From: a virus
Direction: 5' to 3' (one strand)
DNA length: 46,404 nt
Virus record (IMG/VR): IMGVR_UViG_3300009180_000069
Location: 1 to 46,404 of that record
In this document: piece after piece, positions 4,929-40,200 of the stretch
Layout of the letters: the number at the start of each line of letters is the position of its first letter
How positions within the stretch are numbered: position 1 is the first letter of the stretch
Translations under genes and position numbers: made by a program
Notes under the pieces: model-generated
What the model was told of the DNA's origin: nothing
Seen by the model: the letters and a program-made list of their open reading frames with translations, nothing else
The model's database searches: none

Positions 4929-6470
4929 CTAATAGTAAGCCGCAACACGTGGTCGCATGATTTCGTCTTCAGCGTCACTGTCTAATCGAATGAACCCACC
5001 ACTACGGAACCGGGCAAGTGCCATCGACACGCAGTCAACCATGTCATCGTGATCTGATGCAGGAAATGCCGCAACTTGCTCAACTACCTCTTCGGCCCAT
5101 TTGTAACTTGTGGGATACCACACCATACCAGACCTAAATATATCTGATATTGCGTTAACACGCGCTATTTTATCGCCTGTGCCCCGATGCGGGGTAAATT
5201 CTTGCACCGGTATACCCATGCGCCGCAACTCTTGGAAGAGTGGGGTCCCAGAAGACTTCTTTTCAACGATAAATGAGTCCGGTTGCCATTCTTTGTACTC
5301 GCGCAACGCCAGTTCCTTCAATTCTGGGAACTCAACACGCACGTTAATGGCGTTTAGCAAGATTATGTGGTTCGCCTCACCTGTGTGGCGCTCGTCGTTG
5401 AACACACCCCACGTTAAAAGGGCAGTAAAGTCGGCACGGTTGTTCTTTTCTGCCGCAGCGTCAAGCGTCATGATGATGTATTCGCAGCTAGGGGCGTCAT
5501 CTGCCTCCCATTTGCGCCACCATTCACGCTTAACCAGTGCACCTTCCTCGGCAGTGGGGTTCTGTTGGAACTGCGCGTTCCACTGGAACAGCGGCATCGA
5601 CGCTTTTGTGCGGTGCAGCGCCTCTAGATCGTAAAAATCAGGCCAAAGTGCCTTCTCGTTGTCGGTGTTTTCATTAAATATGGCAGGAAACTCAAACAAT
5701 TCGTACTGATCTGAGTTGGTTATGCGCCCCATGTCCTTGGCAAGCTTGCCAATCAAGTCATTCGGATGCCACCTTGTGTGCACGATAGCCACTTTACCCT
5801 GTGGCATAAGGCGCGTTCGCGCACCGTAAGTAAACCACTCATACACTTTCTCAAATACATCATAATTTCCGTTAATAACGTCTTGTTCTGAGAACGGATC
5901 ATCCACAATCAGGAAGTGCGCACCACGACCAGCAAGAGCCGCACCTACACCACAGGCAAAGTACTCACCGCCCATGTTGGTATTCCACCGCCCGGCGCTC
6001 TTAGAGTCAGCAGCTAGCGTGACTGTCGGAAATATCTGTCTATATGCAGGGCTGCCTACGACGTTACGCACCTTGCGACCAAAGTCCACCGCCAAATCAG
6101 CCGTGTGCGAAACCATCAATACCTTCTTATCAGGGTTTCTACCTAGATACCATGCAGGAAAAAATATAGATACAAGCTGTGACTTGCCATGGCGTGGGGG
6201 TACAGACACACCGATACGATCTTCCTCGTCGCGTTCCATCTTCATAAGCAGGTCAGCAAGTCTGCGGTGGTGTCGCCCAACCTTATAGTTGGAATCCATG
6301 TGCTTACAAAACTCAATCAGATCGTCACGGCAGCTTGCTGAGAACTTGCGTTGCTCCAGCGTATCGGCAATCTTGAGTATTTCGCTTTGTTCTTGAGCAG
6401 AAAATTCATCCAAGCGCGTGAGCAGTATCTCAAGCTCTTCCTCAGTAAAGTCGAGGATGTCATCACTCAT
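4929..6470 (-). CDS. terL: Terminase large subunit (packaging ATPase-nuclease)
   Basis: A 513-residue protein with both terminase domains. The ATPase has a Walker A PPRHGKSQ (residues 91-98), a Walker B FLIVDDPF (186-193) and a coupling region near VAIVHTRWHPNDLIG. The RNase H-like nuclease shows its acidic residues in IIMTLDAAAEKNNRADF (Asp337), SFIVEKKSSGTP (Glu403) and SDHDDMVDC (Asp473, Asp475, Asp476 and Asp479). It cuts concatemeric DNA and pumps it through the portal. The length is close to the usual 450-600. An in-frame ATG at 6494 would add eight residues. I prefer 6470 because it overlaps the small-subunit stop by 8 bases and starts MSDDILDF, a normal N-terminus. Confidence 0.95.
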   Translation of the reverse strand: MSDDILDFTEEELEILLTRLDEFSAQEQSEILKIADTLEQRKFSASCRDDLIEFCKHMDSNYKVGRHHRRLADLLMKMERDEEDRIGVSVPPRHGKSQLVSIFFPAWYLGRNPDKKVLMVSHTADLAVDFGRKVRNVVGSPAYRQIFPTVTLAADSKSAGRWNTNMGGEYFACGVGAALAGRGAHFLIVDDPFSEQDVINGNYDVFEKVYEWFTYGARTRLMPQGKVAIVHTRWHPNDLIGKLAKDMGRITNSDQYELFEFPAIFNENTDNEKALWPDFYDLEALHRTKASMPLFQWNAQFQQNPTAEEGALVKREWWRKWEADDAPSCEYIIMTLDAAAEKNNRADFTALLTWGVFNDERHTGEANHIILLNAINVRVEFPELKELALREYKEWQPDSFIVEKKSSGTPLFQELRRMGIPVQEFTPHRGTGDKIARVNAISDIFRSGMVWYPTSYKWAEEVVEQVAAFPASDHDDMVDCVSMALARFRSGGFIRLDSDAEDEIMRPRVAAYY

Positions 6471-7059
6471 CGGGTGTGTCCCGGGTAATCCCAAGCTCTT
6501 TGTCTACGTCGATGTCATCAATCACCACAACGTCCTGCACATCTTTGTTCAAAATACGGTTGAACTTCTCACGTAGTGTTTTGCGCAAGTCTTCTGTGCT
6601 CTGGTGGGTAATTGTGACTTCCGAACGCTCAGTGAACAGCCCCACATCGGTGATCTTGCCAAGCAGCTCTAATGCACGGATGCGCACCCGTGGGTCTGGG
6701 TTCTCGGACTCCAGCAGCAACTTATTTGTGACAAGGTGTCGAATCTCAATGCTGTGACGCACAACAGCCGAACCAAACTCATCGAGGATACGGCGTGTTT
6801 CTATAAGAGATGCTGGCGGAAGAGCTGCCGCACGTTGGGTAGTAACTTGTTTTGAAGCTTGTTCGGGGTTTGCTGCGTAGGATGTTGCAAGGGCTGCAGC
6901 GATGTCTTGGGCTTCTTGGCTTGCTTCTTCTAACTCGTAGCCATGCCCTGCAAGAATATCTGCCGTGCATGATACCGCCCGCACCCGTTCGTGCAGGTCA
7001 ATCACACCCTGTTGCGGGGTAAGAGGTACACCTTGATCTGGTGTAAGCACTAGCGCCAT
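6463..7059 (-). CDS. Putative terminase small subunit
   Basis: A 198-residue helical protein directly upstream of and overlapping the large terminase, the usual place for the small subunit. The first 100 residues are Ala/Gln/Glu-rich. The second half contains VRIRALELLGKITDVGLFTERSEVTI, which resembles the C-terminal part of small-subunit or terminase-linked proteins, and the end is acidic. No obvious N-terminal HTH can be read, so DNA recognition is not demonstrated. It is the first gene of the leftward late operon, beginning 402 bases from the first rightward gene. The assignment depends mainly on position. Confidence 0.7.
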   Translation of the reverse strand: MALVLTPDQGVPLTPQQGVIDLHERVRAVSCTADILAGHGYELEEASQEAQDIAAALATSYAANPEQASKQVTTQRAAALPPASLIETRRILDEFGSAVVRHSIEIRHLVTNKLLLESENPDPRVRIRALELLGKITDVGLFTERSEVTITHQSTEDLRKTLREKFNRILNKDVQDVVVIDDIDVDKELGITRDTPDE

Positions 7060-7385: not shown

Positions 7386-7414
7386 TTGACATTCCCTGTC
7401 ACTTGGCATATAAT
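7386..7414 (+). promoter_or_regulatory. Perfect sigma70 promoter for the first early gene
   Basis: TTGACA at 7386-7391, 17-base spacer, TATAAT at 7409-7414, so both hexamers match the consensus exactly. It reads rightward into the 167-aa gene starting at 7462. The downstream sequence TATAATTAAGTT is shared with the promoter at 25937. A dyad CAGTC-GATT-GACTG follows at 7423-7436, over or just past the expected start site, and could be an operator. Host RNA polymerase should recognise it. Confidence 0.88.
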
Positions 7415-8120: not shown

Positions 8121-8145
8121 AACCCGCTTCGGCGGGTTTTTTTAT
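8121..8145 (+). terminator. Rho-independent terminator with TTCG loop
   Basis: AACCCGC-TTCG-GCGGGTT followed by a T-run. A 7-bp GC-rich stem with the very stable UUCG tetraloop makes a strong intrinsic terminator, ending the first early transcript. Confidence 0.93.
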
Positions 8146-8146
8146 G

Positions 8147-8177
8147 CCCGCATGGTTTGCGCCATGCGGGTTTTTTT
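8147..8177 (+). terminator. Second, tandem rho-independent terminator
   Basis: CCCGCATGG (8147-8155), loop TTTGCG, CCATGCGGG (8162-8170), then seven T. It is a perfect 9-bp stem directly behind the first terminator. Two terminators in tandem insulate the 7386 transcript from the repeat-rich region that follows. Confidence 0.93.
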
Positions 8178-8240: not shown

Positions 8241-8341
8241 GTGACAGTATCCAGAGCAGCGTGGCGTGGGGAGTTGCAGCATGGCTTATTTCACGGCGTC
8301 GCCAAACGCAGCAGAACCCTTGTGACAGTATCCAGAGCAGC
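8241..8341 (+). repeat. 20-bp direct repeat, two copies 81 bp apart
   Basis: GTGACAGTATCCAGAGCAGC occurs exactly at 8241-8260 and 8322-8341, and similarity continues for several bases (TGGCG). The pair lies between palindrome copies 2 and 3. In the +1 frame the repeats make a short open frame with a repeated VTVSRAAWRG, which I take as a by-product of the repeat. Confidence 0.85.
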
Positions 8342-8358
8342 TTGGCGCGGCGATAAAC

Positions 8359-8378: not shown

Positions 8379-8450
8379 AATGTTCTAATGTTCGTTTTTG
8401 GTAATGTTCTAATGTTCGTTTTTGGTAATGTTCTAATGTTCGTTATTGAG
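8379..8450 (+). repeat. Three 24-bp tandem repeats (iteron-like)
   Basis: Copies at 8379-8402, 8403-8426 and 8427-8450. The first two are identical and the third differs only near its end. Each unit has AATGTTCT followed by AATGTTCG, so six AATGTTC motifs lie in a regular array. The exact reverse complement of the first 20 bases of the unit is found at 8974-8993. Units of about two helical turns resemble plasmid and phage iterons. Confidence 0.9.
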
Positions 8451-8640
8451 TGAAATTGAATGTTCGTTTTACTTATAATTTGAGATGCTTTTGGTGTGTT
8501 TGAATGTTCTAAAAAAGGGCTAATGTTCTGTGAAAGTTCCTATAAAGTTCGCTTTTTTTCTAGGTAAAACGAACATTAGCTTTGGTGAGCAAACGTGACA
8601 GATTACCGCAAGGTACAGCAAGAAGTGATAAGCAGGGTTT

Positions 8641-8696
8641 TACATATTGTTACTTATACTTATATATATTAATAATTTTATTTTATTAGAATAGAA
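8641..8696. other. AT-rich block, possible DNA unwinding element
   Basis: A run of almost only A and T (for example TATATATATTAATAATTTTA at 8661-8680) inside the AATGTTC array. AT-rich blocks next to iterons are where replication origins melt. This is inference from composition. Confidence 0.45.
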
Positions 8697-8890
8697 TGTT
8701 CGTTTTAGGGTCAGGTAGTCCGGCGACTGCGAGCGGAAACTCATTTTGCAGACACCGTTTTCGAACTTTGTTCGGTTTGCAATGTTCTTTTCCTCGCTCT
8801 TTTCCAAGGTGCCCTTTCACCCCAACAAAAATCGAACATGGGAACATTCCCAACGTATCAAGCACTTGCAAGCCACCCATCATAACTATG

Positions 8891-8909
8891 TCAGAACTTC
8901 TCAGAACTT
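8891..8909. repeat. TCAGAACTT direct repeat overlapping the -35 box
   Basis: TCAGAACTT at 8891-8899 and 8901-8909. The second copy ends inside the -35 hexamer of the 8908 promoter. The 10-bp spacing puts both copies on the same face of the helix, as expected for a regulator that blocks or helps RNA polymerase. Confidence 0.6.
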
Positions 8910-8936
8910 GACACCCACTAATAACCATGCTATAAT
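8908..8936 (+). promoter_or_regulatory. Perfect sigma70 promoter for the 9083 gene cluster
   Basis: TTGACA 8908-8913, 17-base spacer, TATAAT 8931-8936. It reads toward the gene at 9083, leaving a leader of about 140 bases that carries five GAACATT motifs and palindrome copy 4. The downstream sequence TATAATAGAGGTT closely matches that of the 9899 promoter (TATAATAGAAGTT). Confidence 0.88.
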
Positions 8937-9052
8937 AGAGGTTAATAGTAAAGCGAACATTTGATTTGAGGAGAAAACGAACATTAGAACATTACACAAA
9001 GCGAACAAAAGAACATTAGGTAAACCGAACAAACGAACATTCAACCAACCAA

Positions 9053-9898: not shown

Positions 9899-9927
9899 TT
9901 GACATATAGTGTCAGATAGTCTATAAT
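9899..9927 (+). promoter_or_regulatory. Perfect sigma70 promoter for the 10008 operon
   Basis: TTGACA 9899-9904, 17-base spacer, TATAAT 9922-9927. It reads into the 305-aa, MoxR and VWA genes. The -35 box is overlapped by a dyad GACATATAGTGTC (9901-9913), a likely operator. Palindrome copy 6 lies 45 bases downstream of the -10 box. Confidence 0.88.
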
Positions 9928-10007: not shown

Positions 10008-10925
10008 ATGCAAACAGAACTGAGCAACACATCGACACTCTTCACCGCACCTGCGGTGTCCGTACCATCTATCTCATCTGCGGCAATGTTCGTAGAACTT
10101 TCGATTGCTACGTGGGCAGGTCGCAAGCTAGACAAACGTGCCTCTGCCGACATCACCAACAGCAACAACGCAGCACGTGGCGTGGCAAACGTGAACAAGA
10201 AACTTCTCGGTGACTGTGCCGAATTGGATGCGGTGAGTAAGTTTACTGCCAACGTGCGTAACATCCACTACTCGATGACTATGCCTTGGTCTGACATGGG
10301 GCTGCGCTTGGTGTCAACACAGAACTACTTCAAGTACACGCAGCAGATGAGCGCACTACAAACCGAGTTTCACAGGCTTGTAAACATCTTCCTCGATGCG
10401 TATGGGTGGGAGATCGGGCAAGCACAGGTCAAGCTAGGCGACTTGTTCAACCAAGATGAGTACCCGTCAACTGACAGACTGCGTGAGAAGTTTCGGTTCC
10501 AACTGAGTGAGATGCCTGTGCCTGATGTGGGCGACTTCCGACTGGACATTAACAACGAGGCGCAGGAGTTAATCAAGCAGAAGTATGCCGACTACTACAC
10601 AGCACAGCTAAAGAACGCAATGCGTGATGTGTGGCAACGAGCACATACCGCGTTGTCCAAGATGTCTGAACGCCTCGACTATGCCGACAAGGACACAAAG
10701 AAAGTGTTCCGTGATTCACTTGTCGAGAACGTGATGGACATGGTGGACTTGCTCAAGACTTGCAACATCACAGGCGACAGTCAGATGTCAGCTATCGCAA
10801 CATCACTTGAGAACGCCTTACTGGGTGTGACACCTGATGCGCTACGTGCTGACGACTATCTGCGTTACGAAACAAAGCAGCACATTGATACCGTACTGAA
10901 AGCACTACCTTCGCTTGACCTGTAA
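10008..10925 (+). CDS. DUF3150-like helical partner of the MoxR/VWA pair
   Basis: A 305-residue soluble protein, mostly helical, with no cysteine cluster or nucleotide-binding motif. The N-terminus is Ser/Thr-rich. The middle contains AGRKLDKRASADITNSNNAA, and after residue 130 comes a long run of charged helices. In several phages a protein of about 300 aa of the DUF3150 type comes just before a MoxR-type ATPase and a VWA protein. Size, order and helical make-up fit that here, but the family name is from memory and unverified. It probably works with the two following gene products. It is the first gene behind the 9899 promoter and palindrome copy 6. Confidence 0.72.
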   Translation: MQTELSNTSTLFTAPAVSVPSISSAAMFVELSIATWAGRKLDKRASADITNSNNAARGVANVNKKLLGDCAELDAVSKFTANVRNIHYSMTMPWSDMGLRLVSTQNYFKYTQQMSALQTEFHRLVNIFLDAYGWEIGQAQVKLGDLFNQDEYPSTDRLREKFRFQLSEMPVPDVGDFRLDINNEAQELIKQKYADYYTAQLKNAMRDVWQRAHTALSKMSERLDYADKDTKKVFRDSLVENVMDMVDLLKTCNITGDSQMSAIATSLENALLGVTPDALRADDYLRYETKQHIDTVLKALPSLDL

Positions 10926-10950
10926 CACCAAGTAACCACAACCAAACCAA

Positions 10951-10966
10951 CCTGACCACAGTCAGG
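10951..10966. promoter_or_regulatory. Palindrome copy 7 (CCTGACCACAGTCAGG)
   Basis: Copy 7 has 6-base arms; the seventh pair is C/A. It ends 20 bases before ATG 10987 and is preceded by the ACCAAGTAACCACAA words seen at copies 6 and 9. Confidence 0.85.
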
Positions 10967-10986
10967 ACACAACTAGGAGAATTACC

Positions 10987-12066
10987 ATGGCAACAGCCAC
11001 TTCGATGTATGCACTATCGCTAGATCAAATCGCCAACGCTATCAAAATCGGTGGCGGCAAGCGTACCGTACTTGTGCAGGGTCACATGGGTACAGGTAAG
11101 TCATCATTGCTTAAGATGTTGGCACGTGACTTCCCGACTCACACACCTTGCTACTTCGACTGCACGACTAAGGACTTGGGTGACATCAGCATCCCATCGT
11201 TGCAGACTATTGACGAGCAAGGGTTCGTGCGCTTCGTACCTAACGAGGAACTGGGCATTCACTTAGGCAAGCCCATCATCCTGATGATTGACGAGTACGG
11301 CAAAGCTAACCCTGCGGTAAAGAACGCCATGCTGCGCTTGATGCTTGAGCGTAACGGGTGTCATACTGGCTCAATCATATTTGCTACAACTAACTTAGGT
11401 GCAGAGGGTGTCGGTGATTTGCTGCCGCCTCACGCACGTAATCGTATTACTGTGCTGACATCACGTAAGTCTACCAACATGGAGTGGATTGAGTGGGGTA
11501 TCAACAATGACATTGATCACACCTTGCTTGGTTGGTGCAAGGATAACCCACAGTTGTTCTACTCATTCGAGGACATCAAGAACCCTGATGACAATCCGTA
11601 CATCTTTCACCCACAGCAGCAACGTACTGCGTTCGTGACACCACGTTCGTTAGAGGCAGCGAGTGACTGGTTGAAAGATCGTGCAAGCTACGATGACACA
11701 TCGTTAATGGCTTTGTTGATCGGCACTATCGGTGAACGTGCAGCAATGGATTTGAATGCGTTCGTTAAGTTAGCTGATCAGTTGCCAAGCCTTGAGTCAA
11801 TCAAGAAAGACCCGATGAATGCGACTGTGCCGAATACAGCAGCGGCAGTAGCTATGGTCGTGTTTCGCACCTTGACTAACATCGAGCGTGAGTGGGTCGA
11901 TGCGTGGATGGACTACATGGGTAGGCTTGATAAAGAAGCACAGGGTATGTTTGCTAACGGTATCCGCAAGCCCAAGTACTCACGCCAAAACATCGTGATG
12001 ACTAACAAGAAGTTCACTGCATGGGCAATGGCTAACAACTACTTGTTCACAGCAGATAAGAAGTAA
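10987..12066 (+). CDS. MoxR-type AAA+ ATPase
   Basis: A 359-residue AAA+ protein of the MoxR/CbbQ kind. Walker A is GHMGTGKS (residues 32-39), Walker B IILMIDE (97-103), sensor 1 is in IIFATTNLG (Asn136) and an arginine-finger candidate sits in PPHARNRI (Arg151). MoxR-type ATPases use ATP to remodel proteins or insert metal cofactors together with a VWA-domain partner, and a VWA-like gene follows directly. So an ATPase-VWA chaperone pair made early in infection is likely; the target is unknown. Palindrome copy 7 and the ribosome site AGGAGA lie upstream of the ATG. Confidence 0.9.
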   Translation: MATATSMYALSLDQIANAIKIGGGKRTVLVQGHMGTGKSSLLKMLARDFPTHTPCYFDCTTKDLGDISIPSLQTIDEQGFVRFVPNEELGIHLGKPIILMIDEYGKANPAVKNAMLRLMLERNGCHTGSIIFATTNLGAEGVGDLLPPHARNRITVLTSRKSTNMEWIEWGINNDIDHTLLGWCKDNPQLFYSFEDIKNPDDNPYIFHPQQQRTAFVTPRSLEAASDWLKDRASYDDTSLMALLIGTIGERAAMDLNAFVKLADQLPSLESIKKDPMNATVPNTAAAVAMVVFRTLTNIEREWVDAWMDYMGRLDKEAQGMFANGIRKPKYSRQNIVMTNKKFTAWAMANNYLFTADKK

Positions 12067-12073
12067 ACACAAA

Positions 12074-12089
12074 CCTGACCACGGTCAGG
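12074..12089. promoter_or_regulatory. Palindrome copy 8 (CCTGACCACGGTCAGG)
   Basis: Copy 8, ending 24 bases before ATG 12114, between the MoxR and VWA genes. Confidence 0.87.
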
Positions 12090-12113
12090 ACTGAAACAAC
12101 TTAAGGACACATT

Positions 12114-13334
12114 ATGTTAATGATCGGTAAGCAGTTAACAGAAGAACAACGTGTGCAGAAAGCAGTCATCGACATCATGGCACACGAGAAGTACTGGGCT
12201 GTCGCACCCATACTGATGATCGGTAACAAGTCTGTGTGTGACAAGACACCGACTGCGTACACTAACGGGCGTGACGAGGTGTATGGTCGTGCGTTCGTAG
12301 CATCGCTGTCCGATGCCGAGTTGCGCTTCCTTGTATTGCATGAGTGCTACCACAAGCTGTACTTGCACTTGACTACGTGGCGGCATCTGTACGATGAGAA
12401 CGCACGTAAAGCTAACATGGCGTGTGACTACGTGATCAACATCAAGCTAGTTGATTCGGATGGTAAGGAGGGCTTCATCGTCATGCCTAAGTGTGGGTTG
12501 CTCAATGCCAAGTACCGTGACATGGACAGCGCAGAGGTGTTTAACTTGCTCGATGAGGAGGATGACGGTGGCGACGGGGATGGTGGCAAAAGTGGCAACG
12601 GTGGCAATCGTGGTAACGGGCAGGGTCAGCCACAGCAGTCACTCGATGACCATGGGTGGGATGATGCCCAAGAGATGGATGCCGAAGAGAAGAAGAAACT
12701 GTCACAAGAAATTGACGAAGCAATCCGTCAGGGTGTGTTGGCGGCGGGCAAAATGGGTTCGGGTGGTAACCGTGATCTTGATGCGTTGTTGCAGCCACAG
12801 GTTAACTGGCGTGAGGTATTGCGTGAGTACGTCACATCTACCTGTGTAGGTAATGACTACTCTACATGGCGTAGACCGAATCGCCGTTACATCGGTATGA
12901 ACCTGTACTTGCCAAGTGGTATCAGCGAATCAGTAGGTGAGTTGGTACTGGCTATTGATACGTCAGGCTCTATCGGTGGTCGGCAGTTGGCTGCGTTCCT
13001 GACTGAGATTAAGTCAATCTGTGATGTGGTCAAGCCTCAGAAGGTTCGCATCTTGTATTGGGATACTGAGGTATGCCGTGATGAGGTGTACTTGCAAGAG
13101 GACTTGGACAAACTTGTACAGTCAACCAAACCTGCGGGCGGTGGCGGCACGACTGTCGAGTGCGTACCTGCGTACATGGCAAAGCATAGCATCAAGCCTC
13201 AAGCGGTTGTTGTATTGACCGATGGCTACTTAGGTGGCTCATGGGGTGAGTGGGCAGTACCCGTACTGTGGTGCATCTTGGATAACAAGAACGCGCGACC
13301 CACAGTCGGTAAGTATGTACACATTAAGGAGTAA
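12114..13334 (+). CDS. VWA-like protein with N-terminal zinc-peptidase-like domain
   Basis: A 406-residue, two-part protein of the DUF2201 / VWA-like metallopeptidase kind. The N-terminal half has HECYH (residues 76-80), an HExxH zinc motif, followed by NMACDYVIN with a likely third ligand (Asp105). A flexible Gly/Asp/Asn-rich linker (about 150-175) leads to a VWA-like domain with the metal-binding DTSGS (282-286), GGGGTT (342-347) and VVLTDG (367-372). This pairing with a MoxR ATPase one gene upstream is typical of ATP-driven remodelling systems. Whether the peptidase part is active is open. Palindrome copy 8 precedes the gene; copy 9 follows it. Confidence 0.87.
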   Translation: MLMIGKQLTEEQRVQKAVIDIMAHEKYWAVAPILMIGNKSVCDKTPTAYTNGRDEVYGRAFVASLSDAELRFLVLHECYHKLYLHLTTWRHLYDENARKANMACDYVINIKLVDSDGKEGFIVMPKCGLLNAKYRDMDSAEVFNLLDEEDDGGDGDGGKSGNGGNRGNGQGQPQQSLDDHGWDDAQEMDAEEKKKLSQEIDEAIRQGVLAAGKMGSGGNRDLDALLQPQVNWREVLREYVTSTCVGNDYSTWRRPNRRYIGMNLYLPSGISESVGELVLAIDTSGSIGGRQLAAFLTEIKSICDVVKPQKVRILYWDTEVCRDEVYLQEDLDKLVQSTKPAGGGGTTVECVPAYMAKHSIKPQAVVVLTDGYLGGSWGEWAVPVLWCILDNKNARPTVGKYVHIKE

Positions 13335-24030: not shown

Positions 24031-24333
24031 ATGGCGTACAAGAATCCGAAAGAAGATCGAAATTACAAGCGTGAGTATGCGTTGTACGGCGGCAAGCCCG
24101 AACACATTAAAGAACGTGCCGAACGCAACAAAGGTCGTGCTACGCTAGTCAAAGAAGGCAAGCTGCAGAAGGGTGATGGTAAAGACGCAGCGCACGTGAA
24201 AGCGATTGATAAAGGCGGCTCGATTAAGCACGGGGTACGTGTTGAAGATGCGAATGTAAACCGCTCATTTAAACGTGATGCAAAGCGCAACCTAGTATCA
24301 GAAGTTAGTAAGCGCGAACGCAAGAAGAAGTAA
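24031..24333 (+). CDS. Small basic protein, possible degenerate HNH endonuclease
   Basis: A 100-residue, very basic protein: YKREYALYGGKPEHIKERAE at the start, GDGKDAAHVKAIDKGG in the middle and NVNRSFKRDAKRN at the end. Phage relatives I recall read 'GDGKDVDHKKPLSKGG...N.R...NRS', a small HNH-type nuclease. Here the DH pair reads AAH, so one catalytic residue may be lost and the protein may only bind DNA. Close to the RecB-like gene (1-base gap). Family assignment is from memory. Confidence 0.6.
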   Translation: MAYKNPKEDRNYKREYALYGGKPEHIKERAERNKGRATLVKEGKLQKGDGKDAAHVKAIDKGGSIKHGVRVEDANVNRSFKRDAKRNLVSEVSKRERKKK

Positions 24334-25991: not shown

Positions 25992-26390
25992 ATGAATGAT
26001 CAACAAATACCCGTAGAAAAACTTGTAAAGATTTACCTCAAAATGCGCGGCAAGCATGATGAGTTACTGCAACAGTTCAAGCAGCAGGAAGAGGCACTTA
26101 AGGATCAGATGACCAAGATCAAAGGTGCATTGCTAGACCACTGCAAAGAACACAATGTCGAGAGCGTGCGTACAACCGAAGGGCTGTTCTTTCGCACGAC
26201 AAAACAAAGCTATTGGACAAACGATTGGGAGTCGATGGGTAAGTTCATCATCGAGCATCAAGCACCTGAGTTGTTCGAGAAGCGGCTGCACCAAGGTAAC
26301 GTAAAACAATTTTTGGAGGAACACCCCGAACTGCTACCCCCCGGACTCAACGTTGAGAGTCAATATTCAGTCACCGTAAGGAGAAAATAA
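25992..26390 (+). CDS. Conserved phage helical protein, 132 aa
   Basis: A 132-residue protein. The N-terminal helix (KIYLKMRGKHDELLQQFKQQ) leads to a pattern SVRTTEGLFFRTTKQSYWTNDWE and later APELFEKRLHQGN, LPPGLN and YSVTVRRK. I recall this set from many phages beside replication genes, function unknown. Possibly it is a DNA-binding or replisome accessory protein. The ATG follows TTGGAGAGTATC; an upstream TTG at 25980 is less likely. It is the first gene behind the 25937 promoter, and its stop overlaps the next start (TAATG). Confidence 0.75.
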   Translation: MNDQQIPVEKLVKIYLKMRGKHDELLQQFKQQEEALKDQMTKIKGALLDHCKEHNVESVRTTEGLFFRTTKQSYWTNDWESMGKFIIEHQAPELFEKRLHQGNVKQFLEEHPELLPPGLNVESQYSVTVRRK

Positions 26391-26665
26391 TGAGTGAAGC
26401 CCCATATGTGCCAGTTGAAGAACTAGCAAAACAACTTACCGTGTCTATCTCGTGTATTCGTGGATGGATACGTCAAGGGAAAGTACCTAAGCATACGTAC
26501 ATCAAAGTCGGTAATACTTATCGGTTCAATATTCCGATGGTTATTGCAGCGTTGACCAAAATCCCTGACCCTGAAGTGAAACCTGTGGATGCTGTTGTTG
26601 AAGTCAGCAGCATTCCTGTGCCTGTTCAGCTTGAGCTGAATTTTAATCCCGACCATGATCTATAA
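26390..26665 (+). CDS. MerR/excisionase-type helix-turn-helix protein
   Basis: A 91-residue protein whose first 50 residues form a winged HTH of the HTH_17 (excisionase/MerR-like) type: VEELAKQLTVSISCIRGWIR, QGKVPKHTYIKVGNTYRFNI. The C-terminal 40 residues are Pro/Val-rich and acidic. Without an integrase in the window it is more likely a transcription factor or a replication-initiator helper than an excisionase. It starts inside the previous stop (TAATG) and precedes the probable ssDNA-binding protein. Confidence 0.78.
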   Translation: MSEAPYVPVEELAKQLTVSISCIRGWIRQGKVPKHTYIKVGNTYRFNIPMVIAALTKIPDPEVKPVDAVVEVSSIPVPVQLELNFNPDHDL

Positions 26666-27732: not shown

Positions 27733-30594
27733 ATGGACACAAAAGAATTTCTAGAAGCAATGCTTGGTGATGAAGGGTATTACTGCATCACAGGTATTGA
27801 AGAACTACACGGTGAAAAGCGAGACCCACTTGTAAAGCAAAAATTTTATACCGATCTTGATGAAGCAGTCGCCGCTGCACTTGAGCTTGATATTCAGGAT
27901 TCAATGAATGCGTACTTTGCATTAGCTACGTTTGAAGAGTCAGGTTCACGGCGTAACAACAACGTCAAACAATTACGATCATTTTTTCTTGATTTGGATT
28001 GCGGTGCAACAAAAGATTACGAAACACAGGCGGAGGCCCTGCAAGGCTTACGTAACTTCTGTAAAGAACTTAAGCTGCCACGCCCCACGATGGTTAATTC
28101 TGGTCGTGGCATTCATGTGTACTGGTCTTTAACTGAACCGGTTGCTCGTGATATATGGTTGCCTGTTGCGGAACGATTGAAAGAATTATGTGTTGACCAT
28201 AGTATGTATGCTGATGCTGCAGTAACATCTGATTCGGCGCGTGTGCTACGTGTTCCCGGGACCCATAACCATAAAGATACACCTGCTAACATCGTAAAGT
28301 TTATTGGTGACCCTGCTCAGGCGGTGTCCTTTGAAAGCTTTCGGGACTTGCTTGGTGTTAATCCGTTAGCCCGTAAACGCTCGTATGTACCCCGTGAAAT
28401 TGACCCCATCATGATGAAGTTGATGGGTAGTTATGTCAGCAAGTTTAAAACGATTATGCTCAAAACAGTCGCAGGTGAGGGCTGTGCACAAATCAAGTGG
28501 GTTGCTGAAAATCAAACCACAATGTCGGAACCAATGTGGCGGGCGGGGTTGTCAATCGCAGCGTTTTGCGAAGACCGTGACAAAGCTATACATAAAATTT
28601 CAACGCAGCACCCTGATTACTCGTATGATTCAACTGAGTACAAAGCATCGCAGATACGTGGACCTTATAGTTGCCAAACGTTTAACAAGTACAACCCAAA
28701 CATCTGCCCTGATTGCAAACACTGGGGTAAGATTACAAACCCGCTTGCTTTAGGGCGGGAATTATCAACGACTGAGGAAGAAGTTATTGTAGAGGACATC
28801 TCTGCTGACTTACCGAATACACCACCGCAGCAGTACACAATACCGAAGTACCCCACGCCTTACGTGCGTGGCAAGAACGGTGGCATATTCAAACGAGTCA
28901 AAAGCGATGATGGTGAAATTGAAATACCGGTGTATCACCACGATTTATATGTCGTGCGCAGGTTAAGAGACCCCGAAATAGGCGAAGCGTTAGTTATGAG
29001 ATTGCACTTGCCTAAAGATGGGGTTCGTGAATTTACGATACCGTATGCAGCAGCTACAGCAAAGGATGAGTTCCGGCGCTACATGTCCATGCACGGTGTT
29101 GCTATTATGAAAATGGATGAACTTATGAACTACGTAACCACATGGGTAAACGATTTACAGATGACAACCGTAGCAGACGAGGCCCGTCGGCAGTTCGGAT
29201 GGACAGACGATAACTTCACATCGTTTGTTGTCGGCAATATGGAAGTCTTTAAAGACAACATTACTGTGAACCCTCCTGCAAGCAATACCGCAGGGTTGTT
29301 TCCAGCGTTCGTACCGAAGGGTACGCTTGAGCATTGGTGCAAGACAATTGATTTTTACAACAAGCCCGGTTTTGAAGTGCACCAGTACATGTTCGGTATT
29401 GGATTTGGCTCTGTGCTGATGCAGTTTATGCCGATCAACGGTTCAATCTTTCACTTGCATAGCAAAGATACAGGCTTGGGTAAGACCACCGCTATGTACG
29501 CAGGTGCATCTATATGGGGCAACCCTGATGTGCTAGTGATGCTTGAGCGTGACACGTACAACTCGAAAATGAATCGTGCTGAGATTTACAAAAACTTGCC
29601 GTTCTATAGCGATGAGATGACTAACACCGCACCGAAAGACCTGAGTGATTTTGCGTATCAGGTTCCGAGCGGGTTGCAACGTAATCGTTTGTCACCCAAA
29701 GGCAACGCCGAACGCTTTCGTGGTGCGCCGTGGAAGTTAACAGTAGGTACGACAGGCAACACCGATATGCTTGAGCGTATCTCATCGTACAAGGCGTTAC
29801 CAAAAGCTGAAGCACAACGGGTACTTTCGTATCGTGCACGTAAGATGGTGTTTGCAACTAAAACCGAGACCGATGTGTTTAGTGCCGACATCAAAGAGCA
29901 CTACGGTCATGCGGGTGTGATGTTTATTCAGTACGTAATGAACAACGTCGAGTCAACCAGAGAGCTTATCTTGGCAACGCAGCAACGCATTGATGCCGCA
30001 GCGGGTTTGCAAGCCGAGAACCGTTTTTGGTCTGTGCAAGCAGCCACCACAATTGCAGGATTGATACTTGCTAAGAAGCTTGGGCTTGTTGCGTTTGATA
30101 TTGCTGCGATGTTTAAATGGATTGTTGAAGTTCTGCAGCAAGCAAAGGCTGACATGGAGTTTATGGGCGGCGATGTTGAAAGTATCTTGACCGATTACTT
30201 GGCTGAGAATTACAACAACGTGCTGCGCATCACCAGTACGCAAGACTTACGTAAAGACGCCAACAACATCGAGAAGGCTGTGCTACCTGAAGCAACACCC
30301 CGCATAGCGTTGGTTGCCCGCTACGAGTACGATGTAAAGACCATGTACTTGATGCCAAAACCATTAAAGACATGGTGCGCTAAGCAGCAGATCAATTACA
30401 CCGCATTGATAGATGGTCTTAAATCAGGTCGCACTAAAGCCAAGCGTGACAAGATACGACTAGGCAAAGGTACGCACGTGAATTTACCTGCTACCGATGT
30501 ATGGGTGCTTGACTTCACGGAGTTCATGGATGAAGGAAAAGAGCAGACACTCGCAACAGCGTCAACACTATTTGAAGAACCGACTCAAGAGTAA
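27733..30594 (+). CDS. PrimPol-helicase fusion (primase-helicase)
   Basis: A 953-residue replication protein. The N-terminal part is an AEP/PrimPol-type primase: FFLDLDCG (Asp87, Asp89), NSGRGIHVYW (His128), SARVLRVPGTHNHK (169-181). A Cys-containing middle (CPDCKHWGKI) may bind zinc. The C-terminal half is a DUF927-like helicase: HSKDTGLGKTT (Lys584), FYSDEMTN (Asp627, Glu628) and KLTVGTTGN with a sensor-like Asn. It would prime and unwind at the fork, working with the PolA enzyme. The domain names for the C-terminal half are from memory. The gene is followed by an overlapping small gene and a terminator. Confidence 0.87.
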   Translation: MDTKEFLEAMLGDEGYYCITGIEELHGEKRDPLVKQKFYTDLDEAVAAALELDIQDSMNAYFALATFEESGSRRNNNVKQLRSFFLDLDCGATKDYETQAEALQGLRNFCKELKLPRPTMVNSGRGIHVYWSLTEPVARDIWLPVAERLKELCVDHSMYADAAVTSDSARVLRVPGTHNHKDTPANIVKFIGDPAQAVSFESFRDLLGVNPLARKRSYVPREIDPIMMKLMGSYVSKFKTIMLKTVAGEGCAQIKWVAENQTTMSEPMWRAGLSIAAFCEDRDKAIHKISTQHPDYSYDSTEYKASQIRGPYSCQTFNKYNPNICPDCKHWGKITNPLALGRELSTTEEEVIVEDISADLPNTPPQQYTIPKYPTPYVRGKNGGIFKRVKSDDGEIEIPVYHHDLYVVRRLRDPEIGEALVMRLHLPKDGVREFTIPYAAATAKDEFRRYMSMHGVAIMKMDELMNYVTTWVNDLQMTTVADEARRQFGWTDDNFTSFVVGNMEVFKDNITVNPPASNTAGLFPAFVPKGTLEHWCKTIDFYNKPGFEVHQYMFGIGFGSVLMQFMPINGSIFHLHSKDTGLGKTTAMYAGASIWGNPDVLVMLERDTYNSKMNRAEIYKNLPFYSDEMTNTAPKDLSDFAYQVPSGLQRNRLSPKGNAERFRGAPWKLTVGTTGNTDMLERISSYKALPKAEAQRVLSYRARKMVFATKTETDVFSADIKEHYGHAGVMFIQYVMNNVESTRELILATQQRIDAAAGLQAENRFWSVQAATTIAGLILAKKLGLVAFDIAAMFKWIVEVLQQAKADMEFMGGDVESILTDYLAENYNNVLRITSTQDLRKDANNIEKAVLPEATPRIALVARYEYDVKTMYLMPKPLKTWCAKQQINYTALIDGLKSGRTKAKRDKIRLGKGTHVNLPATDVWVLDFTEFMDEGKEQTLATASTLFEEPTQE

Positions 30595-33800: not shown

Positions 33801-36800
33801 TGTAATGCTGAAATCGCCGTACCATCGGGATTGATTCCGGCAAGCTTGGTACGAAACTCTGGGTTACCCCACGCCTCAGCAACAAACTCTTGCACACTTG
33901 TTGCACCGTAAGCTGAATCAAGGGATGGCTTGACCTTGTTGAACAGAGCCGTAAGCTGTTTGGTAACAGGATGGTTTGCGTTGTCCAGCACGTGTGATAA
34001 CGCACCGTGCACAGTCTCATGAATTAACGTGTGGTTGTTTAACCCAGTCTTTGAGTCCAACGTAATTGTGTTGGTTTCAGGGTCGAACATGCCGGATATA
34101 GGCTTACCCGCATCGTCTTTTAAATTATCAACAACTTTGACTTTGGTATCTGTTACACCACGCATGAGCAACTTGAGGATGCGCCCCGTCAAGCCACCGG
34201 TTTGGGCAGCGAGTGTGTTCAACGCATCAGTAAGATTGCCTGCTTGTAATTGCGCCTGCACGTTGTCGGGTAGGTCCCCGTCTAATGCCTCTTCAAGCTT
34301 TAACTTCTTACCCTTACCTTTACCCCCTGTTGCGGCTACTGGTGCAGGTTGCCCCCATTGAGCTACCAAGTGCGCTATGGCAGAGTTTGCTACCGCATCA
34401 TTCTTGGCTTTTAACCTAGCAACTTCAGCTTCTTGCTCGGCAGCGGTGAGTTTATTGTCTTGCTCTCCTTTGGGTAAAACTTTGGCTTCGGGTGCGGCTT
34501 TGGTTTCAGGCGTAGTTTTGGTTTCAGGCGCAGGAGTTTTGGGCGTGGCTTCGGCTTCCGCTTCTTCCTGCGCAGCCTGTTGTTTTGCTGCTTCAGCATC
34601 AGCCTTTTGCTTAGCGGCTTTAGTTGCAACATCAGCTTTTTGCTTAGCGGCTTTAGTTGCAACATCAGCTTTTTGCTTAGCTGCTTGCTCTTGCGTAGCT
34701 TTTTGCTTAGCGGCTTCAGCTTTAGCGTCAGCTTCGATGTCAGCTTTAGGCGTAGTTTTTGTCGCAGGAGTATTGGCTGCTTTTTTAGCACCACCAACAT
34801 AATCCTTACGTGCGTTTGCAAGGTCGCTAGGTATAAAAAATTCTTTTTCTGGTCTGCGCGAATATGCAGCGGGATTATCCCCTACGTCTTTGCCACCAGT
34901 TTTATTTTGCATATTAGAAACGCGATATTTTTCTACTTCCGCAGTAGGAACATCAACGTACGTCAAACGCCCATTGGGGTGCTCATTTTTTAAATACCAA
35001 TTAGCTTCGTTGATGTCATCAGTAAACCACCGGTTTGACGCTGCTAACGTATTTTTGTAGTTATCAGATTCTTTAATCCAACTAGGAATATTAGGTTTGG
35101 GAGTATTGGAAGTAGTTTCTGCCCGATACAAACGAGTTGTTTTTGGTTGTGGGTAGGGTGCAAACGTACCACCACGTGGTCCTTGCAGATCAATCTGGGC
35201 AAACGGCGGTTGTTTTAATATATCGTTAATTCGTTTTACAGCGGTGCGCGAACGTGGGTCACTGCGAGCGGCAAAAGCTTTACGCGCCTCTTCAAGTTGT
35301 TTGGCAACGTACGCACGATCAGCAGGCTTTGCTAAGTCTTTACCCAAGATATTTTGACGCACCGCAGCATTATTTGGTAAGAACAACCAATCAACCGACT
35401 CCTGATTTATGAGCGTATTGGGTTGAGCATCTGGCAATTCTTGCTCGTTAACCTGTGTACCTACACCCTGCCGAATACCCTCTGCCCGGGAGGGTACTGG
35501 TGTTTGTTTACGTGAAAACAAGTCAAGCTGTTGTTGTTGTGTTGGCTGTCCGGCTTGAATCGGTGAAATAGGTGCAGCACCTTGAGACGCTTTGGATAAC
35601 CCAGCATCCGCCAAGTCACCTTGGGCATCGGTCAGGTCGCGCTGAATGCTTGACTGTTGAGCGATCTTATCTAATTCAGCCTGCTTTTGTGCCTCGCGTT
35701 GTTGCTCAGCAGCGGTGTACCCCATCTCGCTTTGCATTTGCGTCAAAGGAGCGTTTTGCAAAGTTGGAGCGGGCGCAGCGGGCGCAAATTGGAGTGCACC
35801 CTGCCTAGAGTCAGCACCAGCACCGCTTTGCATTTCTGCAAGCGTATCATCGCGTTGTTCGTTTCGTGCTTGCTTATAAGCAGCAATACCTGCTTCTTTG
35901 GGTGGTACACCTACGTCAATAAGCGCCTGTGTTAATTCTCTAGTACGTATTTCTACAGGGTCAGCTTGAAGCGCAACACTGCGCTCCGGCACAATATCGC
36001 CCAGCAAGTCAGGTGATTGAGAGCCGAAAGTTTGTTCTAACTCTGCTTGACGCCGCTCACCAAAGTCCAAAGGCAACGATTCAGGACCGGCAGCGGTGGG
36101 TTCTACTGGTTCAGCAGCGGTGGGGGCCGGCGCTGTTACTGGCGCGGCGGGGCCTTGCATCTCATCAGGCAGCAGGGGGAGTTGTTCTGCACCAGCAACC
36201 CGTCGGTTGTACTCTGTTTTAGCGGCTTCTTCTTGTGCGATTCTAGCTTCACGAGCATTTAATTCACGTTGCGCACGACCTCTTGCGCCTGCACCGCTTA
36301 CGCCACCAAACGCACCGCCAAGCACCGCACCGCCGATCAGGCTGTCTAGGTACTCTTCACGCGCTCCGGCATCTATGGTGCTGATACCCGCTTGCAAACG
36401 CTCAAGAAATTGCTGACCTACTTCAGTAAGACCTTCAACACCAGCAACCTTACCGCCGGTCATGCCTACGTTAGTTAATAAGTTGCGTTGTGCAATCGCC
36501 TTTAACTGCTCTTCTGTAAGTTCTTTACCTGCAGATTTAAAAATCCTGCTGATGCCGGGCATCATTCTAAATGACACAACGTCTAACAACGCTTGTGGAA
36601 CTGCTGCTGCACCCGCAGCTATGATGTCTGTATCAGCTAGTCTGACACCGTTTTCTTGCACTTGCCGAGACAAGTTAGAGCCTGTAAATTGTGCACCCGA
36701 TACCAAACCCGCACCAAGAGCGGCAGCAACACCAGTACCAAGACCAAGCGCACCAGCTACCGGAGCCGTACCAGCTAACACACCTGCAGCAAGCGGTGCT

Positions 36801-37257: not shown

Positions 37258-40200
37258 TTACTTCCAAGTTTGGGTTGCTGGATCGTATGTTGGAATACCG
37301 CCTTTACCTGAAAGTGTAGACATACCCAAAGCTTTTGCGGCGTTAGCATCTAATTCTAGTATACGCAAATCAAACGGTTTACTAGCTCTATCGCGTTCGA
37401 CAGCTATTTGAGCTTGCAAAACTCTAAATGCTTCTTTAGCTTTTGGGTCTGCTTTTGGACCAGTAGCTTGCATACTAAGCATTTCGTACTGACTTGTAAA
37501 CGGTTTAAGAGCCGCATTTATTGCTGCTGTTTTTTGAGCTTCTACCCGAGTAGCTGACTCATTAAACCCTCTGTAAGCCGTTAATGCGTTTTGCGCTCTG
37601 GCATCATCTCGACGCGATTCTAGTTCTGCAACGCGTATTGTCATGTCATTACGCAAGCGAGCTTGGTTAATCTCAAATTCTTGAGCACGTTGAGTACGGT
37701 TATCTTCTGCAATTTGCAGTCGAGTCTTAGCGGCTTCCGCAGTAGCCTCTCTAGACGCACCAGCAGTGATACCAGCAGCTTGAATCTTGCCTTGGAAGTC
37801 CATAACAGTGTTGAAGTACTTGCCATACATCTCAGCAGCAAGTTTTTTATTGCCTTGCTTGAGCGACAACTTGTATTGACTAAATGCATCTTGAGCTTCG
37901 TCAGCTTTCTCAATGGCTTTGCGAGCTTCGGCTTGTGATGAGAAGTATTGCTTACCGCCTGCTTCCGCTAAACGCCTAATGCCATCTGACAAGTTCATGC
38001 CACCCATCATTGCGATACCCCCTGCAATCATGGCTTCGCTCATTACACCGCGTTCTTGCTTTTCAGCACGTTGCAGTTTACGTTCAGTACGTTTTTGCAA
38101 ATCGGCAAGAACAGCTTTGTCTTCAGGATCAAACTCTGCGGCTTTCGCTACGTTTGCTGCGTACGTACCCCAACCAAATATGTCGCCAGCACCGGCAACA
38201 CCGGGAACCGTAGGCACAGCACCAAACCCACCAGCACCGGGAGTGCGAGGTGTAATAGCGTTAACAGGCGCAGTAGTACCAGTACGGGGTGCACCACCAG
38301 CGGGAGTACCAACATCAGTAATACCACCCCCAGCAGGAGGTACAGCGGAAGTAGGAATAATGCCACCACCAACAGGAGCACCAGTGGCAGGAGTAGCCCC
38401 AGCAACAGGAGGTATAGCGGTGATGCCACCTAAATTAGGGTATTGCCCCGGACCTTCTTGAGCGTTGCCCGCATACATTTGTGCGGCAGTGTCAGCACGA
38501 TTTTGTTGATCTTGTGCCATAGCTTGACGTTCGGCAAACAACTCAGTATCTCGGGCTATTTCACGCCCTGATGCATCCCAATTTGCCAATTCTGGAATTT
38601 GCCGGGCTTGTTGATCTTGTGCCACACCTTGACGTTCAGCAAACAACTCGGTATCTCGGGCTATTTCACGCCCTGATGCATCCCAATTTGCCATCGTTTT
38701 ATCGTTTGCCGGTGCCGGTATAACTTGCGAACGGGGTACTTTTGCGCCGCGTAAACCAAACATACCTTCTAACGATGGTTTTTTCTCTTTTACATCTTCC
38801 AGTCTGACATCTGAACCAAACGTATCGTCTTCAGTAGCATCTTTACTACCCCCAGCAAGCGCAACAATCCCCCCGCCAGCCGCCATCACGGGCTGCTCAG
38901 CAATACCACCTTGCCCAGCAACTTCTTGAGCTACCGTCTGTGTTGGCATTTCGCCTTGAGGTTGACGCACACTAGCGCGTCTTGTCATCTCAGCTTTAAC
39001 TTCAGCAAGTGCAACCGCATCTTTTACTGTACGAGCATAAGCTTGTAACTGCCCGTCAGTTAACTGCGACAACTTACTAGATAACGCAGCAGGGCTAGTA
39101 GCCGCCACCGCCCGAGGATCAACAACAGGTTGACCGCCCATAGCATAGCCCTGCACCGCGCCGCCACGGGCATAGCTCATCAAGCCGCCTTCCTTAGCGC
39201 TTTTATTCGTTGCACCATAAGCAGCAAGACCCGCGCCCAATATCTGAGGAGCCATAGCACCCGTGTTCTGGTACATAGTTTGTGAGGCTTGTGACATTGG
39301 TAAACCGCGCATCATGTCAGACTGGAACGCAAGCTGCTTGTATGGGTAGTTCATCTGGTCTTGGTACTGCTGGTAGGCAACGTTTAGACCCTGCTGTTGC
39401 AACGCTTGTTGCTGCGCACCGGCTTGCATCTGTGCTTGGTTGATTGCTTGTTGTTGACCAAACTGAGTCTGACCTAACGCGCCAAGTGTTGAAGCTGCCG
39501 AACCTGCCAAACCTAACCCAGCCAAACCGTACTGACCTGCACCCACCGCGCCTTGAACACCTTGCATACCAATGTTTGCACCAGCAATGCCCATGTTACC
39601 GGCTGTCTGAGCGCCTTGCATACCCAATTGACCACCACCAATCATTAACTGACCGGCTTGGTTAGCACCTTGCATACCAAGACTAGCACCTTGCATACCC
39701 TGTGCTGTACCCGCTAACTGGCGGTCAACACCAGCGAGTCCGACCTGAGCACCTTGCATACCCTGTGCTGTGCCCGCCAATTGCGTATTAACACCTTGCA
39801 AACCTGTCTGTGCGCCTTGAAGCCCAGTCAAATAGTTTTGGTTAGCACCTTGTAAACCTGCGAGTCCAACTCCTGCACCTTGCATACCCAGCGAGGCGGC
39901 AGCTTGCATGTTTCTGTTAGCAACATCATAGGCAGTGTTGTAACCCTGACCAATCGCTTGGTTCATTGCGATATTCTTGTTGCGCTGGTTTTCCGCAAAG
40001 ATTAACGCTTCACGGCTACCACCAAACGCACCTGCTTTAGTTGCGTTGCTCTGCCCCTGTGCACCCGAGATGCCATACTGACGTTGCATTTCAGCTAATT
40101 GTGGCTGCAACGATGCTTGTAAGTAAGGGTTCATGTACCCTTGAACCGCATACGGATTTTGTGCGCCCTGACCGTAGCCCAGACCAGCTTGCATACCCGT

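Follow-up and report, generated by a model that had tools for sequence, protein, structure and literature searches.

A predicted SaPI/PICI-like replication origin with facing iteron arrays in a family of uncultured phages

The closest described systems are the replication origins of the SaPI/PICI satellites. These always have an AT-rich region between two sets of iterons, and the pri and rep genes of the elements may be fused (PMC6092414). SaPI Rep recognises the origin iterons via its C-terminal domain, and the DUF927 protein Cch is related to SaPIbov1 Rep (PMC7581432). In iteron plasmids the repeats are helically phased, with IHF aiding opening in R6K and pSC101, and E. coli oriC combines two arrays of opposite orientation with an IHF-regulated complex and a DNA-unwinding element (PMC5043065). 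Direct repeats are also bound by the transcription regulator BldC, whose molecules line up head-to-tail on tracts spaced by one helical turn (PMC5859096).

The repeat array described here occupies positions 8379-9041 of the window, which is the whole 46,404-nucleotide (46.4-kb) stretch of viral DNA that was analysed. Judged from its sequence and that of its relatives, the array is likely to be a phage replication origin of the SaPI/PICI-like type. It has two iteron sets around an AT-rich region, as in PICI origins, and the phage encodes a DUF927 helicase homologous to SaPIbov1 Rep and Cch, in this case fused to a PrimPol domain. A PICI origin lies just 3' of rep, whereas this array lies ~19 kb upstream of the primase-helicase gene, and the two are far apart in complete relatives too. 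The SaPI/PICI elements are satellites, whereas the phages here are apparently lytic and ~60 kb in size; a conserved IHF site, an embedded early promoter and, in the window, longer mirrored arms set the array further apart. The array is not filed outright as a SaPI/PICI-type origin, given where it lies relative to rep and given that the binding of its iterons is only predicted. By analogy, it would work like one, as a variant in position, IHF site and promoter.

Iteron plasmids (R6K, pSC101, P1, RK2) share the phased iterons, the AT-rich element and, for R6K and pSC101, the use of IHF (PMC5043065). They mostly carry one direct array, whereas the arrays here are two and opposed, a Rep_3 initiator was found in 0 of 16 relatives, and DnaA boxes show no enrichment, occurring in 1 of 55 arrays with 3 expected. 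The likeness to oriC extends to the opposed arrays, the IHF site and the predicted unwinding element, but not to DnaA boxes, and the reader of the repeats would be phage-encoded here.

Order of the repeats and DNA signals in the window

The array and its left boundary contain the following features.

8241-8272 and 8322-8353 (8241-8353 overall), plus strand: left boundary block, in which GTGACAGTATCCAGAGCAGC(G/T)TGGCG occurs twice
8379-8465, plus strand: left outer arm, built of three 24-bp units that each hold two AATGTTC sites at 8-bp spacing, with one more site 24 bp beyond the last pair
8503-8577: left core sites, AATGTTC at 8503 and 8522 and aaaaCGAACATTag in inverted orientation at 8571, as relatives have too
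near 8534-8550: degenerate AAAGTTC copies in the left core
8644-8694: candidate AT-rich DNA-unwinding element, containing the least stable 50 bp of the window
8695-8707, plus strand: central site AATGTTCGTTTTA, immediately 3' of the AT run
8781-8787, plus strand: AATGTTC in the right part of the core
8834-8848, minus strand: doublet GAACATGGGAACATT with 8-bp spacing, by alignment the counterpart of CGAACATTAGAACATT in relatives
8856-8868, plus strand: perfect match to the IHF consensus, WATCAANNNNTTR (TATCAAGCACTTG), 22 bp from the doublet start
8908-8936, plus strand: perfect sigma-70 promoter, TTGACA-17-TATAAT, within the array and facing the early genes
8955-9041, minus strand: right outer arm, which mirrors the left one

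All 18 exact copies of AATGTTC/GAACATT in the array fall within 663 bp, and the window holds a single further copy, at 10085. Shuffling the whole window gives 7.5 copies per 46 kb, and 3000 first-order shuffles of the 663 bp averaged 0.19 copies, with a maximum of 3. A first-pass annotation had described 18 motifs around an AT-rich block, three 24-bp tandem units and an exact match of one 20-mer on the opposite strand, and each of these was recovered: the motifs enclose the block at 8644-8694, the units start at 8379, 8403 and 8427 (identity 100, 100 and 88%), and the 20-mer AATGTTCTAATGTTCGTTTT is exact at 8379 and 8403 and, on the minus strand, at 8974-8993.

The array is more ordered than that annotation stated. 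The inverted copies that it mentioned are present, but they belong to a mirror image of the left arm, completed by two degenerate GAACAAA copies at 9003 and 9027. In each arm, site pairs 8 bp apart lie in 24-bp units and are followed by a single site 24 bp inward, at 8379/8387, 8403/8411, 8427/8435 and 8459 on the left and at 9035/9027, 9011/9003, 8987/8979 and 8955 on the right. The arms (8379-8465 and 8955-9041) thus mirror each other around the core, which spans 8503-8936, and complementarity between the two 100-nt arms is 77%. Outer arms of this 24-bp type are present too in three relatives (L153, L185 and L137) and a few others. The core is older, and the 24-bp outer arms are a layer added to it. 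The left boundary block is probably equivalent, judging by eye, to a block in relatives that reads ACCAGTT..GTAGCG(T)TGAGCC and also lies left of the array.

Other signals surround the array. Terminator-like hairpins at 8121-8171 would insulate it from the left. Perfect TTGACA-17-TATAAT promoters occur at 7386-7414 and 9899-9927 as well as at 8908-8936, all rightward and before early genes. Rfam and tRNA searches of the window gave no matches. An inverted repeat, CCTGAC-NNNN-GTCAGG, lies upstream of many early genes, in 11 places compared with 0.12 expected (7334, 8190, 8359, 9054, 9553, 9973, 10951, 12074, 13367, 15716 and 16369), and two of its copies bound the iteron array. Some relatives have another palindrome in the equivalent role, with 10 copies of AGGGAATTCCCT in G009, 7 of AAGTAATTACTT in G011 and 5 of AGGGAGCTCCCT in L048. 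This pattern suggests that the early-gene palindromes may be an operator or a hairpin with a co-evolving partner. Elsewhere in the window, tandem repeats at 38503-38693 (105 bp, 1.8 copies) and 34597-34686 (33 bp, 2.7 copies) lie in large, probably virion, genes.

A conserved layout across the phage family

The window is a member of a large family of uncultured phages. A scan for the MoxR-like ATPase found 307 encoding stretches among viral contigs; a scan run on 84,980 genomes of bacteria and archaea gave no relative, with no prophages seen, and the family is apparently lytic. Near-complete relatives are ~60-67 kb, and by comparison some 15 kb are probably missing from the 46.4-kb window. Relatives have in common the terminase, portal, DUF3150, MoxR and VWA proteins, a family-A DNA polymerase, a PD-(D/E)XK nuclease and a SNF2 helicase, together with the HTH protein and the primase-helicase described below. 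The search for cultured relatives found none with the array, and its best MoxR-like ATPase match covering at least 80% of the query was only ~26% identical. The part of Pseudomonas phage Rollin that was examined has no AATGTTC array, although the primase-helicase of this phage is 30% identical, and the array is absent from the Pelagibacter-type terminase relatives scanned. The large terminase (4929-6494) is ~45% identical to those of Pelagibacter phages HTVC023P/027P and phage DSL-LC04. The replication genes of these terminase relatives differ, which implies different histories for the packaging and replication modules.

An independent search with the 16-mer AATGTTCTAATGTTCG gave 108 contig stretches, most of them with the array and family marker genes; 20 could not be oriented by marker genes, and of these six hold arrays and the remainder are mostly isolated matches. 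The same architecture is found at the matching genomic position in more than 100 loci. Where both flanks are present, the array sits between two anchors that are normally 1.8-5 kb apart, the gene adjoining TerL (leftward) and DUF3150 (rightward).

6463-7059, minus strand: left anchor, a conserved gene next to that for TerL, probably encoding the terminase small subunit
10008-13334, plus strand: right anchor, DUF3150-like protein, MoxR ATPase and VWA protein

Array statistics were taken from 55 non-redundant arrays with 561 sites, from relatives that are not phylogenetically independent. The sites of the left half are mostly on the plus strand (276 plus and 43 minus, n=319) and those of the right half mostly on the minus strand (186 minus and 56 plus, n=242). 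Outside the 8-bp doublet, distances between same-strand sites peak at 10-11, 20-22, 30-32, 40-42 and 50-53 bp, and with the 24-bp-unit arrays left out the helical phasing has a Rayleigh R of 0.71 at 10.25 bp. The aligned core has a conserved order, from a left arm of direct sites, an inverted site, the TTTcGTGGtaaa block and the AT run to a site directly 3' of that run, the doublet CGAACATTAGAACATT, ATCAA-NNNN-TTR, the right arm and the promoter. From the central site to the doublet is usually 104-124 bp in relatives and 139 bp in the window.

Nearest-neighbour stability reaches -45.9 kcal/mol at 8644, the weakest 50 bp of the window, and in 25 of the 28 records scored (window included) no 50-bp stretch of the record is less stable than the AT run of the array. 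Some of the 28 are short fragments, and nearly all the near-complete genomes agree; the exceptions are G002, with two weaker places, G015, with six, and L030, with one. Across 36 anchored arrays, AT content peaks at one position, at a near-constant distance from the doublet. A DNA-unwinding element beside initiator sites is thus predicted. The IHF consensus, WATCAANNNNTTR, has an exact match in 28 of the 55 arrays, where 1.7 would be expected, and the match usually lies 22 bp from where the doublet starts. A rightward sigma-70 promoter is found at 17 of the 55 arrays compared with 0.28 expected, and a leftward one at none of the 55.

In some sister lineages the motif itself has changed and the layout has been kept. 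G006 and L036 have AAAGTTC instead (9 and 15 copies, with 0 and 1 of AATGTTC), and G019 and G021 have ACTGTTC (10 and 9 copies, with 2 of AATGTTC each); sister arrays with changed motifs also keep the IHF consensus. Because all sites change together, one common trans-acting reader is implied, and the persistence of the motif across genomes of 38 to 57% GC speaks for a phage-encoded one. The comparison with relatives that the first-pass annotation called for has shown that opposed arms, phasing, the AT run and IHF spacing are conserved.

Candidate readers of the iterons

Two proteins of one operon are the best candidates for the reader, as had been proposed before comparisons were made; the comparisons did not separate them.

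26390-26665, plus strand: HTH_17 winged-helix protein with a BldC/Xis/MerR-like fold, in the primase-helicase operon, candidate iteron reader
27733-30594, plus strand: fused PrimPol primase/DUF927 helicase, homologue of SaPIbov1 Rep and SCCmec Cch

The protein at 27733 has 953 residues, with an N-terminal PrimPol-like domain followed by the DUF927 helicase. Over residues ~495-827, the profile of its family matches SaPIbov1 Rep (8tch) at 3.6e-19 and SCCmec Cch (5dgk) at 7.8e-15. Searches with its predicted structure (pLDDT 78) also place 8tch and 5dgk at the top, with fold matches of 1e-14 to 1e-15, ahead of PrimPol domains. This homology supersedes the earlier statement that no initiator with known sites was recognised, and 27733 is likely an initiator-helicase. 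DnaB, Rep_3 and integrase domains were found in 0 of 16 relatives. In the structure model, the C-terminus of 27733 has a winged-helix-like order of helices and strands, which makes this region a candidate iteron reader. It is slightly more diverged in some pairs of lineages with changed motifs (about -0.08), which is not convincing as covariation.

All 20 relatives with sequence for this region encode the HTH protein at 26390, which has a D-x-D tail at its C-terminus and residues of the recognition helix that are invariant. As to covariation with the motif, the recognition helix hardly varies. Fold searches rank BldC and phage Xis best (PDB 6ama/6amk), at an E-value of only 0.03, and weak values are expected for a protein of 91 aa. 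Its residues 80-91 form an acidic tail with D-x-D in all relatives; one clade has QLELDF/QLELNF at this place, which resembles a sliding-clamp binding motif. The phasing of the iterons by about one turn is compatible with head-to-tail binding of the BldC type, although BldC is a transcription regulator and the HTH protein is only a candidate origin binder. A tentative proposal, less likely than a reader in 27733, is that the HTH protein reads the iterons, polymerising head-to-tail on the facing arrays and opening the AT run with IHF, and that its acidic tail recruits the primase-helicase. If true, this would make it a BldC/Xis-type winged-helix replication initiator, a class of origin-binding protein undescribed in the SaPI/PICI, iteron-origin and BldC literature cited here. 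A further small basic protein (24031-24333; R-Q-R-A-R-R ... GKD-H-K ... GG-NKDG) occurs in nearly all relatives; it has no Pfam match and is possibly HNH-like.

Alternative roles and a proposed mechanism

The strong early promoter inside the array weakens the origin reading, as a purely regulatory role is possible. The array could be an early-gene operator or enhancer on which HTH filaments and IHF repress or activate the promoter at 8908, with replication starting elsewhere. The perfect sigma-70 promoter, its matching side in relatives, the right outer arm just downstream of its -10 element and the BldC/Xis/MerR-like fold of the HTH protein, BldC being a regulator that binds direct repeats (PMC5859096), all fit such a role. 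It leaves unexplained the weakest duplex at a fixed spacing and the left arm, far from the promoter, and there is no leftward promoter although the arms point both ways. Autoregulation and origin function may also coexist, as in iteron plasmids, and we regard a solely regulatory array as rather improbable.

Much less credence is given to the remaining readings. Repeat arrays can act as centromeres, and terminase genes adjoin this one, but a look through the early genes, which was not systematic, noticed no ParA/ParB-like protein, and pac sites are not expected to combine a weakest duplex, an IHF site and opposed, helically phased arms; a partition or packaging site is very unlikely. Least probable of all is an attachment or recombination site like lambda attP, in which the iterons would be arm-type sites, IHF would bend the DNA and the HTH protein would act like Xis. 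The IHF site, the opposed arm sites and the Xis-like fold agree with it, but a Phage_integrase domain, and with it a tyrosine integrase, was found in 0 of 16 relatives, and the scan of the 84,980 cellular genomes found no relative and no prophage.

GC skew was set aside as an origin test. The cumulative minimum, at 6783, lies ~1.6 kb from the array, and in 14 of 14 relatives scored it is within 4.6 kb of it. The check that the first-pass annotation had suggested thus places the minimum near the array, but it does not discriminate: genes diverge at the minimum, so that the skew mirrors gene orientation and is given no weight, and third-position skew differs in sign between genomes.

The origin reading made in that annotation is supported by the opposed arms, the phasing, the weakest duplex, the IHF spacing, the concerted turnover of the sites and the SaPI Rep/Cch-type helicase. 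The parts of the model that can be read from sequence are the array, arms, phasing, conservation, weakest duplex, IHF consensus, promoter and helicase homology. On this basis, a phage-encoded protein would bind the AATGTTC iterons as two facing arrays, and host IHF would introduce a bend in the stretch that separates the doublet from the right arm. The resulting complex would open the AT run at 8644-8694, where the self-loading primase-helicase 27733 could enter. Forks started by 27733 and extended by the phage family-A polymerase would then replicate the genome bidirectionally. The reader would most likely be the C-terminal region of 27733, as in SaPI Rep, with the HTH protein as a co-binder or an alternative reader.

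If the origin reading is true, it would map the origin in uncultured ~60-kb phages of a widespread family, whose marker ATPase is encoded by about 300 viral contigs. The fixed layout would yield testable predictions on the site, its reader and the host factor IHF. Lineages that have switched the motif in concert would offer natural differences in specificity by which to find the reader.
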